This document shows positions 19,078-61,425 of a DNA stretch of 64,000 bases, one piece after another. Numbering within the stretch: position 1 is the stretch's first letter; each line of letters begins with the position of its first letter. The notes beneath the pieces were generated by a model. That model made no database searches, was not told the DNA's origin, and saw only the letters and a program-made list of their open reading frames with translations. The stretch comes from Haloglycomyces albus DSM 45210. GTDB lineage: Bacteria; Actinomycetota; Actinomycetes; Mycobacteriales; Micromonosporaceae. The position numbers were made by a program, and so were the translations under genes. The stretch is taken from NCBI RefSeq assembly GCF_000527155.1, contig NZ_AZUQ01000001.1:2043615-2107614 (forward strand), in the 5' to 3' direction.

Positions 19078-19905
19078 GTGTGCGAAGAATGTGGAGAGCC
19101 ACTGGCGGAGGCGTACAAGGGCCGACCTCGGAAATACTGTTCGCGGAGCTGTCAGGCTAAAGCTTACCGGCGTCGCAAACAGAAGAAGGAAGCACAGAGG
19201 TCGGTATCGTCCCACTATCTCGGGAGCCTGAACACGGTCTCGATGACCAGAACGGCGATCGCCCGAGCGGATGCCACGGGACTTGACTCTCTCACCATGC
19301 GGCGATTGGCCACAGACCTTGGAGTGGCGACTTCGACGGTGTATCGCTACTTCGGTAACCGCGACGAACTGCTGGCGAACATGGTGGAGCTGGCCTTGTC
19401 CGATATCGCACCTCGTCGCCTGCCGACCGGAACGGTACGTGAACGGATGTCGGCCGAAGCGTGGCGAGAATGGCAACTGTACCAACGTCATCCGTGGATA
19501 TTGCCCGTGCTGGCTCGTGTGCATCCGCCACTGAGCCCGGCATTGCTCGACATGGTGGAACGATACGCCGTTGCGATATCCGATCGTTCGGAATCAGGGG
19601 AGCACAGCGTCGTAAACGCGCATAGAATTCCGGGTCGTTCCCCTTTCATGGTGGTCTTCCTGGCCATATCGGGTCTCGCGCAAGGGCTGGCCATGGTACC
19701 GATGTCAGGATCCATATCTGATTCGGAAAAGGCAGCCGATCGGAAGGCCCTAGGCGAATGGTTGGAGTCCGGAGACTTTCCCTATCTGAAGGAATGTGTT
19801 TTGGCTGAATCGTGGGACGAAATAACCGATTTCGACGACGTTTTCGAACAGGCCCTCGGCATTATGTTGGACGGATTGGAATACAGGCGAAGGCAAGAGG
19901 AATGA
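19078..19905 (+). CDS. TetR-family regulator with N-terminal zinc-ribbon-like segment
   Basis: This is a predicted transcriptional repressor, 275 residues. It starts CEECGEPL...GRPRKYCSRSCQAKAYRRRK, a short four-cysteine motif (C2, C5, C21, C25) sometimes found before TetR domains in actinomycetes. The TetR helix-turn-helix follows: LTMRRLATDLGVATSTVYRYFGNRDELL (about residues 72-99). A TetR_C-like ligand domain fills the rest. The GTG start at 19078 follows GGAAGAG. Its target is unknown; the divergent GNAT gene or the downstream glycosyltransferase-like gene are the obvious candidates. Confidence 0.88.
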   Translation: MCEECGEPLAEAYKGRPRKYCSRSCQAKAYRRRKQKKEAQRSVSSHYLGSLNTVSMTRTAIARADATGLDSLTMRRLATDLGVATSTVYRYFGNRDELLANMVELALSDIAPRRLPTGTVRERMSAEAWREWQLYQRHPWILPVLARVHPPLSPALLDMVERYAVAISDRSESGEHSVVNAHRIPGRSPFMVVFLAISGLAQGLAMVPMSGSISDSEKAADRKALGEWLESGDFPYLKECVLAESWDEITDFDDVFEQALGIMLDGLEYRRRQEE

Positions 19906-19974
19906 CACAGGCCTCGAAGGTCACGAACGATCTGCTTGTCAGGGCCGTACAATTTTCTCTGACACACTTGGGAA

Positions 19975-21780
19975 ATGCGACCGGGAGTTCTGGAGACGAT
20001 TAAAATTGGGGATAAAGCGTCCAGCGTCCAGCGTCCAGCGTCCAGCGTCCAGCGTCCAGCGTCCAGCGTCCAGCGTCCAGCGTCCAGCGTCCAGCGTCAA
20101 CTTACACTCCCGAGTGAACGTCAGATTGTCCTCGCCGGGCGAACCCAACAAGCGCTTGCTCGACTCCACTTTGATCTAGCGCCGCTGTTTGCCGCCGATC
20201 CCCGCATCGATTATCGCTACGCGATCGTTCCAGGATCGGATCATGCCCTTCCCGCCAAGCGGTTCATCCTGAAATACGATCTACCGGAAGTGGATTGGGA
20301 AGACGTCACTAAATCCAATACCGATCTTGTCATTACCGCTAGCCCGCGTGGATTCATATTCGATCGTGGTATCCCGACAGTGGTCATTCCACATGGAGCC
20401 GGGCACAACCGATTGCTACCGGACACCAGCGGGGTTGCGGGCCTCTGTCGTGAACATCTGGTATCGGATTCGGGAGCGAAACCGAGTTTTATCGCCCTAC
20501 CGGGAGCTGTGGCGTATCGGCAGCTGAGGCAGGAATGCCCGGAAGCTCTGGACCGAGCTGACATTACCGGTGACGTTTGTTGGGAACGGTTTCACATCAG
20601 CGAAGACCGACGTCAACACTATCGGCGCGCGCTCGGCGTCTCCGACACCCAGAAACTGATCGTCCTAGCCTCCACCTGGGGGAGAGATTCCCTTGTCGGC
20701 CGGGACCATTCCGCGATACCAAAGTTGCACGAGTGGCTGTCCGACCCGGAAACCGTCGTCGCATTCGTGCCACACCCGAACATCGACAGCGGTAATCCAC
20801 CGTCAACGGATCATCGCTATGCCTCCCATGTGCGTAACGGCCTCATCATGGTTCCACCCGAAGAAGGCTGGCGCTCGCTCATCGTAGCCGCTGATTACAT
20901 TGTCGGCGACCATGGTTCGGTAACCGTATACGCTGCCGCTTTGGGGAGGCCGGTTGCCATTGGGGAATTCGGCTTCTCGGAGATGCCCGCTGAGGGTGCC
21001 TTGGCACGATTGGGCAGGGAGCTCCCTCGACTGCAGTGGAGTGAGCGGCCGTCAGTGGAACGGCTCACTAGCCAATGCGAAAGGGTCGATGCGAGCGTGA
21101 TCGGCGATATTTTCGACCTATCACGGGACTCACCGGCTCAATTGATTGTCGAACGCTGTTACGAGCTGCTGGAATTGTCTCCCACGCAGGCGTCGTACCC
21201 GATCGCGTTTCCCGAACCCGGTTTTCGGATCGATTACAGGCCGACTTCCTCCTGGCAGGTTCACTATTCGAGCGATGGTGCCGATGTCCACCCGCTCTGT
21301 TCCTTGGGTTCACGCGATTCGCCGGATTTCATCGTTACCTCGACGCAGACGCTGGATTATAGAATCAAGGGTATAGCCGAGGTCGTCACGAGTCTGGAAC
21401 GGCCCGTTGAGGACGTGGCACACGCGTGGGAAGAGAACGCCCGGATTCTCGACGAATCCCAAGTCCACGGTATGGCGGTTACCGCGTTCGGGGTCGACCG
21501 CTACGCCGTCACCTTTAAATCCGGCTATCGCGGAATCCTACGTGTCAAAGGAAATCCGATTCGGGCGCTTGCCGATCTGTTTTATTACCGAACACTCGGG
21601 AGTACCGTCGACGGCTTGGATTTTGAACCCATGCCATACAAACCGGGTGTTTTACGCACGGATATCCTGCTCCAATGCCGCTATCCGGTGTTTGACGTCG
21701 TTGGCCCGGGGAGAGTGGCCGCTTTCCCAAACGGCGAGTGCGGATTTCAGACACCGCAGTTGAAAATCCTTATCGCGTGA
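19975..21780 (+). CDS. CDP-glycerol glycerophosphotransferase/glycosyltransferase-like protein with 5' heptanucleotide repeat
   Basis: The 601-residue protein has a GT-B-like body resembling TagB/TagF-type polymerases. Supporting segments are DLVITASPRGFIF, VVIPHGAGHNR, VLASTWGRDSLVG, VAFVPHPNI and YIVGDHGSVTVYAAALGRPVAIG, consistent with teichoic-acid or surface-glycan assembly. Residues 15-42 are encoded by eleven full GCGTCCA units plus a partial twelfth (20017-20099), read as repeats of SVQRPAS. The conserved fold starts immediately after the repeat, and there is no in-frame ATG, GTG or TTG between the repeat and the fold, so translation must cross the repeat. The C-terminal 200 residues are unrecognised. 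The 3' end overlaps the opposite gene by 129 bp. Confidence 0.75.
   Translation: MRPGVLETIKIGDKASSVQRPASSVQRPASSVQRPASSVQRQLTLPSERQIVLAGRTQQALARLHFDLAPLFAADPRIDYRYAIVPGSDHALPAKRFILKYDLPEVDWEDVTKSNTDLVITASPRGFIFDRGIPTVVIPHGAGHNRLLPDTSGVAGLCREHLVSDSGAKPSFIALPGAVAYRQLRQECPEALDRADITGDVCWERFHISEDRRQHYRRALGVSDTQKLIVLASTWGRDSLVGRDHSAIPKLHEWLSDPETVVAFVPHPNIDSGNPPSTDHRYASHVRNGLIMVPPEEGWRSLIVAADYIVGDHGSVTVYAAALGRPVAIGEFGFSEMPAEGALARLGRELPRLQWSERPSVERLTSQCERVDASVIGDIFDLSRDSPAQLIVERCYELLELSPTQASYPIAFPEPGFRIDYRPTSSWQVHYSSDGADVHPLCSLGSRDSPDFIVTSTQTLDYRIKGIAEVVTSLERPVEDVAHAWEENARILDESQVHGMAVTAFGVDRYAVTFKSGYRGILRVKGNPIRALADLFYYRTLGSTVDGLDFEPMPYKPGVLRTDILLQCRYPVFDVVGPGRVAAFPNGECGFQTPQLKILIA
20017..20099. repeat. 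heptanucleotide tandem repeat (GCGTCCA, 11 units plus partial)
   Basis: Eleven perfect 7-bp units occupy 20017-20093, followed by GCGTCA. Because 7 is not a multiple of 3, gain or loss of one unit changes the frame. One extra unit leads to TGA within six codons after the tract, and one fewer leads to TAG after about 27 codons. The present length keeps the downstream gene open. Confidence 0.97.
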
Positions 21781-23577
21781 ATAAGCGGCCAGTCGTTCCC
21801 AACCTTCGGCTTTATCCTTCTTAGACGAGAGTTTCGTCAATGCGTTGTGCGCGCGTAGAAGTGACGGCCGATTCGCACTTTCCTCAGCTTGGAGCAGAGC
21901 GAGTTTGGCGGCGACCTTTGGTTCGATATTCTGTTCGCCGATGGAACGGAACAGGTTTATCGAACGCTCGTAGTGGCCTTTCGCGTCCTGATGCCGCCCC
22001 ATTCGTTCCAGGATTTCGCCCTTTTGCTTGGTATATAGAGCTTTGGAACGAATGCGACGCTGTTCGTCGGCAAATTTCGGGCACAGTTCGAGAGCCTGGT
22101 CGGTACGTTCTTCGGCCTCGAGGAGGTCTCCGCGAGCGGCAAGCGTGCGGGCCTGTTGTTCGAAGACGCTGGCTTGAAACATGTGACGCGGATAGGGCTT
22201 GTCGCCGATCATGTCGCACAGCAGCTCAGCTTCTCGCAAGTGCTGTAGCGATTCGTCGAAACCGCCGATCTCACTGAGGCTTTTGCCAAGCCACAACCGT
22301 GCTTGCAGTTCCACCGCAGGGTCGTCGAAGGCTATGGTTTCGGCAGCGACGAGGGCGTCGGAATAACAATCGACCGCTTCTTCCGGGAACGGCTGATTGT
22401 TGTAGAACGCCCAGAGCGCTTCCGCCAGGCTAACGGCGCGGGTCCACCACTGATTGTGCAGCGCAATGGTCACCATCGTTTTCAGCGCGGTATGGCGTTC
22501 GAAGAACCATTTTTCGGCCTCCCACTTGCCCGAATGGCCGTGTAGTCCTTCCAGCGGGGCCTGCGGCATGATCCGACGGCGGTTGCCCATGATGATCCTG
22601 TCGGCTTCCTGTGCAAGGGCGAGAACCTTGTCGAAGTACGACTCGAATGACAGTCGGAATTGCGTTCGGTCGGCGAGGGAAGTGCTGTGAGGTTCAGCGG
22701 CCGACGACCGGTGCAACCGGAAATAACCATGATTGTCCGGGATAACCAAATCCAGCCGAATAAGCTCATCCAGAGGAGACGGGTCCTGCGGTTGAGGCCC
22801 GATCAGGATTTCGGCCGTCGTCTCGTCGAAGAGCCGTTGTGGCAATAGGTGCAGGAATCTATAGAGCCACAGTGCCGCGTCGCTCAAGGAAGCTTGTAGT
22901 ACACCATTGCTCGACCCCAAGGTCACGATGTTCTTCAGCTCTTCTTGGCTTTCACCGGCAAGATCGGGATCGTTCGAGATGAGTCGCGCGATCTGTAGCA
23001 GTTCGTGGGGTCCGAAGAGCTCATCGTCGTTAATGGTGGGGCGCAAACGGTGGTCCAGCCCGACCTGATCGAAGAGTTCGGCACGTTGCTCAGCGTCGAA
23101 CGGCGGCAATTCCAACTCGAGGAACTCCATGTCGTTTGCGGAATCCGGACTGACAAGTACGAAACCACAGACATCTCGTGAGGGTCGGAAAAGACGTGCG
23201 GAATCGGTATTTCGATCGCTACGCACCATGATCAGCCTGACGTCCTCGCTGGCGGCGTCATTGAACTGCCGACCCAAGTTCTTGACTGTAGACGTCAGGA
23301 GATCGGTGGGCACTCCGAGGCGGATCAGGCTCTCACGCAGGACGGTAACAAGGTCGGATCCACGAAGGTCCACGAACAACTGACCACCTGGATAGTGGTC
23401 GTTGACTTCCTGGGCGATGACCCGAACTACGCTGGATGCTCCCCGGTTTTCGGCGGAGCGCAACCATACGGGTCGGGGACGTAGTTTTCTGAGTTCGGCA
23501 CTAAGCCTATCGGCCGTCGGGCCTCTGTTCACCCAGATGTGAGGGGGACGAATTCCGTCTGCTGGTTGTGTAACCAT
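21652..23577 (-). CDS. STAND/NB-ARC-like protein with degenerate P-loop and TPR region
   Basis: The 641-residue product looks like the NTPase-TPR part of actinobacterial NB-ARC proteins. The segment before PGGQLFVDLRGSD is where homologues carry a GxGGxGKT P-loop; here it reads SAENRGASSVVRVIAQ, without the Gly-Lys-Thr. A winged-helix-like region (about 210-300) follows. TPR-like helices cover about 350-641 (ARLWLGKSLSEIGGFDESLQH, KGEILERMGRHQDAKGHYERS). ATG 23577 was chosen because TATAGT lies 7 nt upstream; an ATG 6 nt earlier is possible. It is divergent from the gene at 23706. The role is unknown; this family often acts in signalling or defence. Confidence 0.7.
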   Translation of the reverse strand: MVTQPADGIRPPHIWVNRGPTADRLSAELRKLRPRPVWLRSAENRGASSVVRVIAQEVNDHYPGGQLFVDLRGSDLVTVLRESLIRLGVPTDLLTSTVKNLGRQFNDAASEDVRLIMVRSDRNTDSARLFRPSRDVCGFVLVSPDSANDMEFLELELPPFDAEQRAELFDQVGLDHRLRPTINDDELFGPHELLQIARLISNDPDLAGESQEELKNIVTLGSSNGVLQASLSDAALWLYRFLHLLPQRLFDETTAEILIGPQPQDPSPLDELIRLDLVIPDNHGYFRLHRSSAAEPHSTSLADRTQFRLSFESYFDKVLALAQEADRIIMGNRRRIMPQAPLEGLHGHSGKWEAEKWFFERHTALKTMVTIALHNQWWTRAVSLAEALWAFYNNQPFPEEAVDCYSDALVAAETIAFDDPAVELQARLWLGKSLSEIGGFDESLQHLREAELLCDMIGDKPYPRHMFQASVFEQQARTLAARGDLLEAEERTDQALELCPKFADEQRRIRSKALYTKQKGEILERMGRHQDAKGHYERSINLFRSIGEQNIEPKVAAKLALLQAEESANRPSLLRAHNALTKLSSKKDKAEGWERLAAYSRDKDFQLRCLKSALAVWESGHSPRANDVKHRIAALEQDIRA

Positions 23578-23584
23578 ATACATC

Positions 23585-23590
23585 ACTATA
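23585..23590 (-). promoter_or_regulatory. -10 box for a leaderless transcript (STAND-like gene)
   Basis: TATAGT on the minus strand lies 7 nt before ATG 23577. No ribosome binding site is visible. Confidence 0.5.
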
Positions 23591-24114
23591 ATGGTTGCGG
23601 TATAACGTGTTGACCTCCTCCCCATTCGTAATGTGGGGGTCGGTGCACCGCGTAATTCCGATCAACCATGGAACGTGTCACGCCCGCAACCAACGAAGGA
23701 CTCCTATGATCGAACCAATCTCCGCCGCGATCGCATCGGCGGCTGCCGGTTATACCACGGACCTCGCTGCGTCTTGGACGAAAACGGCCTTGACGAAAAT
23801 AACCGATATAACCACGGGTCGACTGAAACGCAAAGACGCAGACGTCGATCTGCTGTTGGCGGCCAAGAGCGATCCCGAGGAGCTGGAGGCTCTCGCGCAA
23901 CGCATCCAGAGCCTACTGGCGGACGACGCGGATTATCGTGCTGACATGGAGGGTTACACCGGGCAGCGCATTCAGATCGACCAGTCCGTCAATCACTTCC
24001 ACGGAACCGTCAATCAAATGCAGATCAGCGGTGACAACCACGCCCCAATGTTCGGTGGGCAGCCCAACGACGTTGCCAAGGAATTATGCGGAAAGCCTGG
24101 GCCTTGTGTCTATA

Positions 24115-24276
24115 TTAGTCGGCGAAGATCTCCGCGACCGGAACGGGCGGCTGATCGTCTCTGGGCTCGGATTTCTCCATTTCCCAACCCAGCAGGCTCA
24201 ATACCATCATCGGTACCGCGACCGCGCTCAGTACGATGGCGGTCAAGAAACGCCGTGAGTAACGTTCGGACGACAT
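24115..24276 (-). CDS. 53-residue single-pass membrane protein
   Basis: A short frame reads MSSERYSRRFLTAIVLSAVA onward. It has one transmembrane helix (about residues 10-31, FLTAIVLSAVAVPMMVLSLLGW) followed by an acidic and proline-rich tail ending VAEIFAD. The ATG at 24276 lies exactly 6 nt after TAGGCT, matching the leaderless start pattern used by other genes here. That supports a real gene although it is antisense to the run-on frame above. The function is unknown. It lies divergently next to yjbQ. Confidence 0.6.
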   Translation of the reverse strand: MSSERYSRRFLTAIVLSAVAVPMMVLSLLGWEMEKSEPRDDQPPVPVAEIFAD

Positions 24277-24282
24277 GGTTCC

Positions 24283-24288
24283 AGCCTA
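24283..24288 (-). promoter_or_regulatory. -10 box for a leaderless transcript (53-residue protein)
   Basis: TAGGCT on the minus strand, then GGAACC (6 nt), then ATG 24276. Confidence 0.5.
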
Positions 24289-24404
24289 GAATCGACCCAC
24301 GTTCTCACGAACCGTGGTTCCTCGAAATTGTGACGTGGGATGGGAAGCACGTGGTGGTCGGTACGGTTCTGCGGCGGTGCTCCACGTTCGCCCTGTTCTC
24401 TTCG

Positions 24405-24410
24405 TACGAT
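24405..24410 (+). promoter_or_regulatory. -10 box for a leaderless transcript (yjbQ)
   Basis: TACGAT followed by GAATGT (6 nt) and ATG 24417. This fixes the start of yjbQ inside the longer open frame. Confidence 0.6.
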
Positions 24411-24416
24411 GAATGT

Positions 24417-24833
24417 ATGAGTTTGTTCCAAAGCAATGAGATTTCGCTGCAAACCGGCCACCGCCAATGCGTTCTTGACATCACGGACAAATGTCGACGT
24501 TTTCTCGTGGATTTTGACGCTTACAGCGGTCTCCTCAACATCTTCGTGCCTCACGCGACCGCTGGGGTCGCCATTCTGGAGACCGGAGCCGGGTCGGACG
24601 ACGACCTGTTGGCAAGTCTTGAGGATCTGCTACCGCGCGATGATCGCTGGCAGCACCGCCACGGATCCTATGGGCACGGGCGTGACCACGTGCTCCCCGC
24701 CTATATCGCGCCTCATGCCACGATCCCGGTTATCGACGGTCGCATGGCCCTGGGGACTTGGCAGTCGGTGACACTTGTAGACACCAACGTTGACAATCCT
24801 GACCGGCGAGTTCGATTGTCGTATTTGGGGTAA
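24417..24833 (+). CDS. yjbQ: YjbQ family protein (UPF0047)
   Basis: The 138-residue protein belongs to the YjbQ/UPF0047 family, for which a secondary thiamine-phosphate synthase activity has been reported. It has the family segments ITDKCRRFL, GLLNIFVPHATAGVAILETG (metal-site His), HRHGSYGHGRDHVLPAYIAPHATIPV and LGTWQSVTLVDTN. The length and start (SLFQSNEISLQTG) are normal for the family, which is why ATG 24417 is preferred over the upstream in-frame extension. It stands alone. Confidence 0.85.
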   Translation: MSLFQSNEISLQTGHRQCVLDITDKCRRFLVDFDAYSGLLNIFVPHATAGVAILETGAGSDDDLLASLEDLLPRDDRWQHRHGSYGHGRDHVLPAYIAPHATIPVIDGRMALGTWQSVTLVDTNVDNPDRRVRLSYLG

Positions 24834-59577: not shown

Positions 59578-61425
59578 TTGAGCGACACCACCGGCACATC
59601 GTCGGACCAGAAGAGCAGCGCTAAAACAACTACTAAACGCCGCCGGCCTGGGACGGGATTGGCCTCTATGCTGATGCCTCAGCTGCAGCAGATGGCGAGC
59701 AACATGGGCATCACCGGCGTGGGCCGGATGCGCAAGAGCGAACTGATCACTGCGATCAAGGCCGCCGAGGAGGCGGCTCAAGACGCTGGTGGCAGTGCAG
59801 AACAGGAGGCCCTACCAGTGCCTGACTCCGATAATCCGTCTACCGTCGATGAAAAGGAAAGCTCGGGGGTGGAGACGGCACAGCGTGGGAGACGACGCTC
59901 CGCACGCCAGACCAATGCCCCAGAGCAGGAAGACAACGTTAGCGCCGCTTCTGAATCCGAAGGCTCCGAGAATCAGTCCAGCGAAACCGCATCTGAGTCG
60001 GTTGAGCAGGTGCGGCGTGGAACCCGTCGTCGCCGTCGGGGCAACGACAGCGACTCCGGTGGTTCCGCACCGCAGCAGTCGTCCACGGAACAGTCTGAGA
60101 AGAGCTCCGATGACGACGACAATGGACGCCGTCGGCGCCGCGATTTTGACAACAACCGAGGCAACTACCGCGACCGCCGGAAGCGCCGCGATCGCACCGA
60201 CCGGGATCGCCGTCGCGGCGGCTACCGGGACCGCAATGACGACAATCGGTCGAATTTCGGTGACGATCGGCGCGATCAGCGCAATGACGACGATTTGCTT
60301 CCGGTTGCCGGAATTTTGGACATCCTGGAGAACTACGCTTTCATTCGAACCACCGGATATCTCGCAGGTTCGGAAGATGTGTATGTGTCAATGGCGCAGG
60401 TGCGCCGCAATAAACTCCGCCGCGGTGACGCGGTTACCGGTGCGGTCAAGCCGCACCAGGAAAACCAGGGCGGAAAACGCCGCGAGAAGTACAACCCGTT
60501 GGTTCGTCTGGATTCCGTCAACGGGATGGATCCGGAGGAGGCGAAGCGTCGCGATGAGTTCTACAAGCTGACGCCGCTGTATCCGGATGAGCGCCTGCGT
60601 TTGGAAACCGAACCGAACAACCTCACCGGCCGCGTCATCGATTTGGTAACGCCCATCGGTAAGGGACAGCGCGCCTTGATCGTCTCGCCTCCGAAGGCTG
60701 GTAAGACGATGGTGATGCAGTCGATCGCGAACTCCATCACCACCAACAATCCTGAATGCCATTTGATGGTGGTACTGGTCGACGAACGGCCCGAAGAGGT
60801 CACCGACATGCAGCGTTCGGTGAAGGGCGAGGTCATTTCGTCCACCTTCGACCGTCCACCGTCGGATCACACCACTATCGCCGAACTGTCCATTGAACGC
60901 GCCAAGCGGTTGGTGGAACTGGGGCACGACGTCGTTGTCCTGTTGGATGGAATTACCCGTTTGGCTCGCGCTTACAACAACGCGACTCCGGCTTCCGGAC
61001 GCATCATGTCCGGTGGTATCGATACCACTGCCTTGTACCCGCCCAAGAAGTTCCTGGGTGCCGCCCGCAACATTGAAGGCGGCGGTTCGCTCACGATTGT
61101 GGCGACGGCTCTGGTGGAGACCGGTTCGATGGGTGACACGGTCATCTTCGAAGAATTCAAGGGAACCGGTAACTCCGAGCTGAAACTGGACCGGAAGATC
61201 GCGGAGAAACGGCGTTACCCGGCTGTCGACGTTCACGCGTCGTCCACTCGTAAGGACGACCTGATGATGAGCTCCGACGAGCAGGCCGTCATGTTGAAGT
61301 TGCGCCGAGTCCTGGCGTCGCTGGAACCGCAACAGGCCATTGACCAGCTCTTTGACCGTCTTAAGAAGACTCAAACGAACGCCGAGTTCCTGATGCAGAT
61401 CGTCAAGACGACTCCTGGGGAATAG
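59578..61425 (+). CDS. rho: transcription termination factor Rho with long N-terminal insertion
   Basis: Hexameric RNA helicase ending transcription. The 615-residue protein starts at TTG 59578 after GGGAAGGA. The N-terminal Rho_N helix bundle ([33 protein letters not shown]) is followed by about 170 residues of acidic then Arg/Asp/Asn-rich low-complexity sequence, as in other high-GC actinobacterial Rho proteins. The primary RNA-binding domain ([20 protein letters not shown]) and the ATPase with Walker A SPPKAGKT (about 370-377) and [13 protein letters not shown] follow. The core is intact. Confidence 0.97.

Follow-up and report, generated by a model that had tools for sequence, protein, structure and literature searches.

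In Escherichia coli K1, the capsule O-acetyltransferase gene neuO carries AAGACTC heptamers in its 5′ coding region; in the cited account, repeat numbers divisible by 3 turn the gene ON, and 42 of 64 genomes were OFF (PMC13001214). Among actinomycetes, pglX of the Streptomyces coelicolor Pgl system is described as phase-variable through a G-tract (PMC4365076), and homopolymer frameshifts are described for glpK of Mycobacterium tuberculosis, where NucS stands in place of MutS/L (PMC10159617). Repeats with units of 6–9 nt are stated to be rarely reported (PMC4692102), and the part of a survey of frameshifted gene clusters in 1106 genomes that we draw on (PMC3711429) does not mention the GT-B-like family studied here. 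The initial annotation of the present locus called its arrangement little described in actinomycetes, which is fair, although the account of pglX in S. coelicolor was already published (PMC4365076). In the open-licence literature, we found no paper on repeat tracts in this GT-B-like family or on its pairing with a TPR/NB-ARC-like gene. The closest working analogue is neuO.

Here, we analyzed a 64,000-nt stretch of DNA (the window, in which positions are counted from the first letter) containing a gene, hereafter the window gene, whose 601-aa frame opens at ATG 19975 and holds a heptanucleotide tract in codons 15–42. TRF reported the tract as period 7 with 11.9 copies and 100% matches (20016–20098, score 166), while the runner-up array in the window scored 58. 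The perfect period-7 run of 83 nt is the longest in the window, with a maximum of 23 nt for the other periods from 4 to 12, and its match run of 76 compares with at most 12 in first-order Markov sequences (n = 20). The pattern (GCGTCCA)x3 was found at a single site in the 3.54-Mb genome, and no other perfect simple sequence repeat (SSR; units of 1–12, at least 3 copies, at least 20 nt) was present in the window and 20 sampled stretches of the same genome, 464 kb in total. Between 18500 and 24900, there were no Rfam matches above the gathering score. At 60839–60863, the window also has an imperfect CGTCCAC array of 3.6 copies, the letters of which resemble the tract unit.

A perfect non-triplet tandem repeat in a coding region or promoter characterizes SSR contingency loci, and the window tract is such a repeat. 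We generated an in silico series of 8 to 14 units, assuming ATG 19975 as the start. Loss of one unit yields a product of 65 aa and gain of one unit a product of 49 aa, so that a one-unit change would abolish the full-length product; the frame is preserved only by steps of three units. The unit itself is free of stops in all frames, and no in-frame ATG, GTG, or TTG was found between the tract and the fold. The initial annotation had already described the tract, its stop-free unit, the stops waiting in both other frames, and the lack of an in-frame start before the fold, and the sequence, the open reading frame call, and the in silico series bear it out. The coordinates of the features are listed in Table 1.

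Table 1. Features of the window gene and its surroundings (positions count from the first letter of the window).
Feature	Position	Strand	Remark
TetR-type regulator upstream	19078–19905	+	Outside the neighbor clusters that recur beside homologues
Upstream −10-like box, TACAAT	19948–19953	+	Candidate gene promoter, 53 bp upstream of the second box; putative role
GACAC motif between the two boxes	19961–19965	+	Kept in the window's own gene group
GT-B-like gene, very probably phase-variable	19975–21780	+	601 aa as sequenced, given ATG 19975 as start
−10-like box TAAAAT, directly before the tract	20001–20006	+	Counterpart of the TAnnnT box of related tracts
TTG where 13/15 related genes have ATG	20006–20008	+	Out of frame in the sequenced allele; putative role
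Heptanucleotide tract	20017–20099	+	11 perfect GCGTCCA units plus GCGTCA (six bases)
TGA reached after one-unit gain (49 aa)	20115–20117	+	In silico and sequence
TAG reached after one-unit loss (65 aa)	20177–20179	+	In silico and sequence
Convergent TPR (NB-ARC-like) partner	21652–23625	−	657 aa; overlaps the 3′ end of the GT-B-like gene; Walker A place degenerate

A structure model built with three sequences for the 392 residues that directly follow the tract (pLDDT 64, pTM 0.66) has a GT-B fold; an earlier two-sequence model (pLDDT 42) was left unused, and the C-terminal part gave no useful model. VIA-align placed the wall teichoic acid polymerase TagF first (3l7m, Z 19.1, rmsd 4.0 over 324 residues), followed within 1 Z by UDP-GlcNAc 2-epimerases and a capsule polymerase, and Foldseek ranked UDP-GlcNAc 2-epimerases at the top. 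The model thus has the GT-B fold like that of TagF expected of PF04464 (Glyphos_transf, CDP-glycerol glycerophosphotransferase), but the window enzyme scores 17.5 bits against that family, below the gathering cut-off of 22.1, and four of 16 family members match it at E up to 0.01. No NCBIfam or PADLOC family matched the window enzyme, and the best result of a sequence-profile search of solved structures was E 0.012 (NapD, in the C-terminal stretch). The enzyme accordingly shares a GT-B fold with TagF/TarL, as far as the predicted model goes, and differs from these PF04464 proteins in falling under the Pfam cut-off and in having the epimerases within 1 Z. We make no claim of PF04464 membership; judged by the model, the protein resembles surface-polymer enzymes of the nucleotide-sugar or CDP-polyol kind. 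The label “surface-glycan-type” given in the initial annotation is supported by the fold only, together with the PF04464 hit below threshold.

Homologues of the window gene are carried by 12 of 61 genomes of relatives, 66 of 300 genomes of the family, and 38 of 394 genomes of the class, the host genome being included each time, while a search of phage records gave no match. From 182 hits, a catalogue of 145 distinct homologues was obtained by dropping copies that share a 300-nt core; one hit (G527:C53) lies outside the catalogue. Homologues whose family-profile match ends past position 430 were termed long-form (n = 91) and the others short-form (n = 54). Perfect tandem tracts (unit 4–12, at least 3 copies, at least 18 nt) are present in 70 of the 91 long-form genes as compared to one of the 54 short-form genes, and this lone carrier (L009) sits on a contig that ends within the gene, which hides its true form. 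With the exception of three triplet arrays in L147 and L148, which have units of 6 and 12 and lie further downstream, the tracts occupy two sites only: one precedes the GT-B fold, and the other is the loop that follows the PHG motif, where they begin 282–341 nt into the fold. Among the 76 tracts at the two sites, the unit is 7 nt long in 59, 8 nt in 15, 4 nt in one, and 9 nt in one (L146), and a scan widened to units of 1–40 agrees with this preference.

The repeats themselves differ from gene to gene and are spread over more than ten genera. At the position of the window tract, for example, the 5′ ends of relatives carry GCAACCCG, ACCAGTC, GCCA, or GGCAGCG, and 40 unit types require 43 changes on the family tree (FastTree only; 142 rows, three low-scoring rows omitted), in which the window's own branch is long and its placement unsure. 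A conserved peptide linker encoded by the tract was ruled out, since the encoded peptides differ among relatives. None of the 42 distinct non-triplet units has a stop on the sense strand; this is weak evidence, because shuffling the bases within units also left no stops in 9% of trials. The close relatives L141 and L142 have homogenized 8-nt units, AACCAGAG and AACCAGGG, with a one-base difference that is seen in each copy.

The 21 long-form genes without a tract at our threshold include L045, which starts 23 nt before the fold, L090, with an N run at the loop, and L140, with 2.75 copies of an 8-mer. In two other tract-less long-form genes, L172 and L174, runs of 12 and 10 C lie near the 3′ end (+1708 and +1597 from the fold start), possibly another slippery site. 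Three genes were scored as N-terminal by the script, namely L141 and L181, in which the contig begins within a loop tract, and L029, whose placement is unsure; they were kept in the tract-site and partner counts and excluded from the counts of N-terminal tracts used for boxes (41) and frames (43).

The specificity of the tracts was evaluated in 68 loci of 9–20 kb (1.29 Mb) covering long- and short-form neighborhoods. Tracts of at least 28 nt numbered 35 inside family genes and their 350-nt leaders (119 kb) and two outside, so the tract is a property of the gene family and not of the host genomes. One of the two outside is the gene of L009 fetched again. The other, the sole tract of this length outside the family in 1.29 Mb, is an intergenic GGATCAC array of 11.1 copies (L066, 2905–2982). 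General abundance of heptamers in the genome was ruled out as a cause by this single unrelated tract, together with the 464 kb of the host genome that held no other SSR.

Natural alleles with open and broken frames occur at both sites. Among the 25 loop tracts, one frame is kept in 13 genes, and the enzyme is split exactly at the tract in 12. Translation must cross 19 of the 43 N-terminal tracts, because no ATG or GTG follows them; an in-frame start precedes the tract in 11 of these, none lies within 90 nt in seven, and one is at a contig edge. Another 16 are open with a later start too, and eight cannot toggle the frame because a stop in the fold frame lies between tract and fold. In these eight and in the 16 with a later start, the tract need not act by frame, as judged from the reading frames. 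For the gene part after the loop, dN/dS between ON and OFF relatives is 0.27 (L122/L139) and 0.23 (L124/L147) in a run that covered 10 of 17 pairs, values that indicate purifying selection on these relatives. The OFF state of L139 differs from L122 by one base in the imperfect last unit, the whole units being unchanged.

A natural same-species pair comes from a relative, Streptomyces anthocyanicus. Strain NBC_01372 has (GCCGGGA)x9.6, a 67-nt tract in a single frame (ON), whereas strain NBC 01668 has 17.6 copies of the same unit in a 123-nt tract with a broken frame (OFF). The difference of 56 nt is exactly 8 units; the 3′ flanks are identical over 1400 of 1400 nt, and the 5′ flanks share 99.5% identity over 1000 nt (2 mismatches, 3 gaps). 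Both copies are plasmid-borne with shared neighbors in the plasmid records searched, which are complete (L213/L214; NZ_CP109572.1 and NZ_CP109229.1), and the OFF copy is annotated from a later start only. Two S. coelicoflavus strains, about 94–95% alike in this region, are both OFF, with GCCGGAA x7.7 in one and GCCGGGA x7.9 in the other; the one-base difference recurs in every copy, which points to turnover of the unit. The convergent partner gene is fragmented in the S. anthocyanicus pair but not in S. coelicoflavus. The comparison of tract length among strains proposed in the initial annotation has thus been made in relatives and returned an ON/OFF difference of eight units; the length of the window tract comes from one genome of its genus.

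Which state the sequenced window allele represents depends on its start codon. ATG 19975 is in frame with the fold. In 13 of the 15 genes of the window's own group, an ATG overlaps the second of two upstream boxes (TAGAATG and similar), and the window counterpart reads TAAAATTG, giving TTG 20006, which misses the fold frame. The allele would therefore be ON with ATG 19975 as the start and OFF with TTG 20006. The start is uncertain; we infer ATG 19975 and, on balance, lean towards an ON allele.

A −10-like box is coupled to the tracts. For 25 of 41 N-terminal tracts, TAnnnT is present in the 28 nt preceding the tract (1.2% in control windows further upstream), and the same holds for 23 of 25 loop tracts (1.4% in gene-body controls). 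The gap from box to tract is mostly 3–12 nt (range 0–21), a spacing at which transcription would start close to the tract. Eight of the 41 N-terminal tracts, from genus codes g29 and g62, directly follow the end of an ECF-like element, [AG]TAAC-N15-18-CGTT; TAnnnT and CGTT are both missing before six of the 41. In the window's group, another TAnnnT lies 53–67 bp upstream, mostly 55, and GACAC (once GCCAC) stands between the two boxes in 14 of the 15 genes. A promoter scan called no full sigma-70 promoter at the window tract, and the −10-like box may be a promoter or a pause element.

In the loop, the box is built from coding sequence, namely Gly-Tyr-Asn-Lys, or ACT (Thr) in place of Asn. The box residue in the 25 loop-tract genes is Asn in 19 (all AAT) and Thr in four (all ACT), with Ser TCG in L100 and no motif in L163. 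These are rare synonymous codons, as the same genes otherwise use AAC 78 times and AAT 10 times for Asn, and ACT for 10 of 677 Thr. Tract-less genes that share Tyr-Asn (L123, L127, L129, and L176) have the codon AAC, and a dip of GC3 just before the loop site is seen in loop-tract genes only. Of 118 genes scored, 23 have both box and loop tract, one has the tract alone, one the box alone (L140, the gene with the 2.75-copy repeat), and 93 neither. Seven independent pairs on the tree gave 6 to 0 for box versus loop tract with one tie in most pairings (p 0.03) and 5 to 0 in some pairings (p 0.06).

These results bear on three other explanations for the tracts. Unit number could tune transcription, mRNA structure, or RNA polymerase pausing, instead of or besides the reading frame. 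Such a device would account for the box before most N-terminal and nearly all loop tracts, the ECF-like element, the local fall of GC3, and the N-terminal tracts in which the frame cannot toggle. However, a pure promoter device would not be expected to have non-triplet units at both sites (the 9-mer of L146 excepted), nor loop tracts inside the enzyme fold with the frame broken in about half of them, and the window tract has no called full sigma-70 site. We consider this explanation unlikely, and we retain it, together with box-driven instability, because tracts exist where no frame toggles (8/43).

The repeats could also be neutral, the N-terminus and the loop merely tolerating insertions, with slippage products devoid of function and OFF copies representing dying genes. 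Both tract sites do lie outside the well-aligned fold core, and tracts are missing from 21 of 91 long-form genes, but tolerance alone would favor triplet units, 53 of 54 short-form homologues have no such tracts, and only one such array lies outside family genes in 1.29 Mb. The OFF copies, moreover, have low dN/dS and are open on both sides of the tract. This explanation is disfavored and very improbable. Even less credit can be given to an assembly or sequencing artefact, which might be suspected where draft contigs start inside the tract (L046, L049, L141, and L181) or 23 nt before the fold (L045) and where N runs fall within the tract (L165 and L171); the window genome is one contig, the S. 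anthocyanicus records are complete plasmids, and the tracts recur across more than ten genera. The contig starts and N letters at tracts suggest either assembler failure or population variation in the tract. N letters also stand just after the tract in L204.

Frame switching of a surface-polymer enzyme remains the most likely account. The differing 7- and 8-nt repeats at the same two places in relatives, together with the S. anthocyanicus pair, lead us to regard the window tract as very probably a contingency switch that turns the gene on and off by frame, and the same sequence comparisons point to a family-wide contingency locus. The contingency arrangement proposed in the initial annotation is thereby supported by frame logic, recurrence at two sites, and natural alleles. 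We propose that the number of 7-nt units changes through replication slippage; as 7 is not divisible by 3, a change of one or two units would shift the frame. Translation from ATG 19975 would cross a tract of 11 units (or 8 or 14) and yield a GT-B enzyme of the teichoic/capsule-polymer type (ON), and it would stop after 42–72 codons if the tract had 9, 10, 12, or 13 units (OFF). The host genome has a NucS match (E 6.5e-37), and a repair search for NucS and MutS_V gave no match to the latter. In mycobacteria, NucS is described as correcting substitutions and leaving frameshifts (PMC10159617), so slips at the 83-nt repeat would be expected to go unrepaired. Most of the long-form family would share the switch, at one or other of the two sites. 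The enzyme would probably alter a surface polymer, and switching could hedge the population against phages or other attackers.

More tentatively, a dedicated cis device, consisting of the −10-like box and, in some g29 and g62 genes, the ECF-like element, might both make and keep the tracts. The repeat would begin at about the transcription start, even within the coding region by means of rare codons; RNA polymerase would melt the first unit, and the length of the initial transcript or a sigma-dependent pause would set the 7–8 nt step. The two-gene module could then represent a widespread and undescribed phase-variable system of actinomycetes with promoter-driven local hypermutation. We regard this extension as possible but doubtful.

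The second gene of this module is a TPR gene of one family, found directly downstream and convergent in 122 of 145 homologues: 65 of 70 long-form genes with a tract, 14 of 21 without, and 43 of 54 short-form genes. Twelve long-form genes have no such partner, six of them with less than 1.5 kb of downstream DNA. Of four partners scanned with Pfam, that of L168 matches NB-ARC at 33.3 bits (cut-off 23.5), while the other three (L154, L187, and the window) gave TPR matches and, at the limits used, no NB-ARC. The Walker A region of the window partner is degenerate (RSAENRGASS), and that of the L154 partner likewise lacks the lysine (GVGASS). For the window partner, PADLOC gave a generic TPR model only (E 0.0035); beyond it, no PADLOC anti-phage defence model named the enzyme or the partner. 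The convergent TPR/NB-ARC-like protein is the regular partner of the enzyme. Among the other neighbors, the TetR-type regulator has an N-terminal CxxC...CxxxC stretch before its HTH, which we take to be zinc-ribbon-like, and a longer frame at 23595–24833 carries a UPF0047/YjbQ domain at its C-terminal end, its N-terminal part being unmatched.

The place of the tract is kept while the repeat sequence turns over, and most long-form members in Streptomyces and related actinomycetes appear to use the switch. If this is true, OFF alleles are misread by annotation, isogenic cultures contain a mixture of alleles, and colonies would differ in a surface trait, which may be sensitivity to phages. Since the repeat is tied to the −10-like box, a link between local mutability and the initiation of transcription can be put to the test, and S. 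anthocyanicus NBC_01372 and NBC 01668 offer an ON/OFF pair as an experimental system.

The systems described so far resemble the GT-B-like family in different respects. Like glpK, which exemplifies frameshift silencing in a NucS-bearing actinobacterium, the window gene would be silenced by frameshift in a genome with NucS; in glpK, however, a homopolymer in a metabolic gene is involved, and the cited part of the account does not describe a family-wide tract (PMC10159617). pglX is likewise an actinomycete gene switched by tract length, but its tract is a homopolymer in a methyltransferase gene, a protein class set apart by the description in that paper (PMC4365076). The window gene and neuO both have heptanucleotide repeats near the beginning of the coding sequence and a role in a surface polymer, the latter being predicted for the window gene; neuO belongs to another enzyme class and phylum and, in the cited account, has a single unit sequence (PMC13001214). 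In contrast, the GT-B-like family has 42 unit sequences at two sites, a −10-like box, and a convergent TPR/NB-ARC-like partner. What is new in this family is that tracts recur at two sites while their units change, that a box is coupled to them, and that the enzyme gene has a convergent partner.
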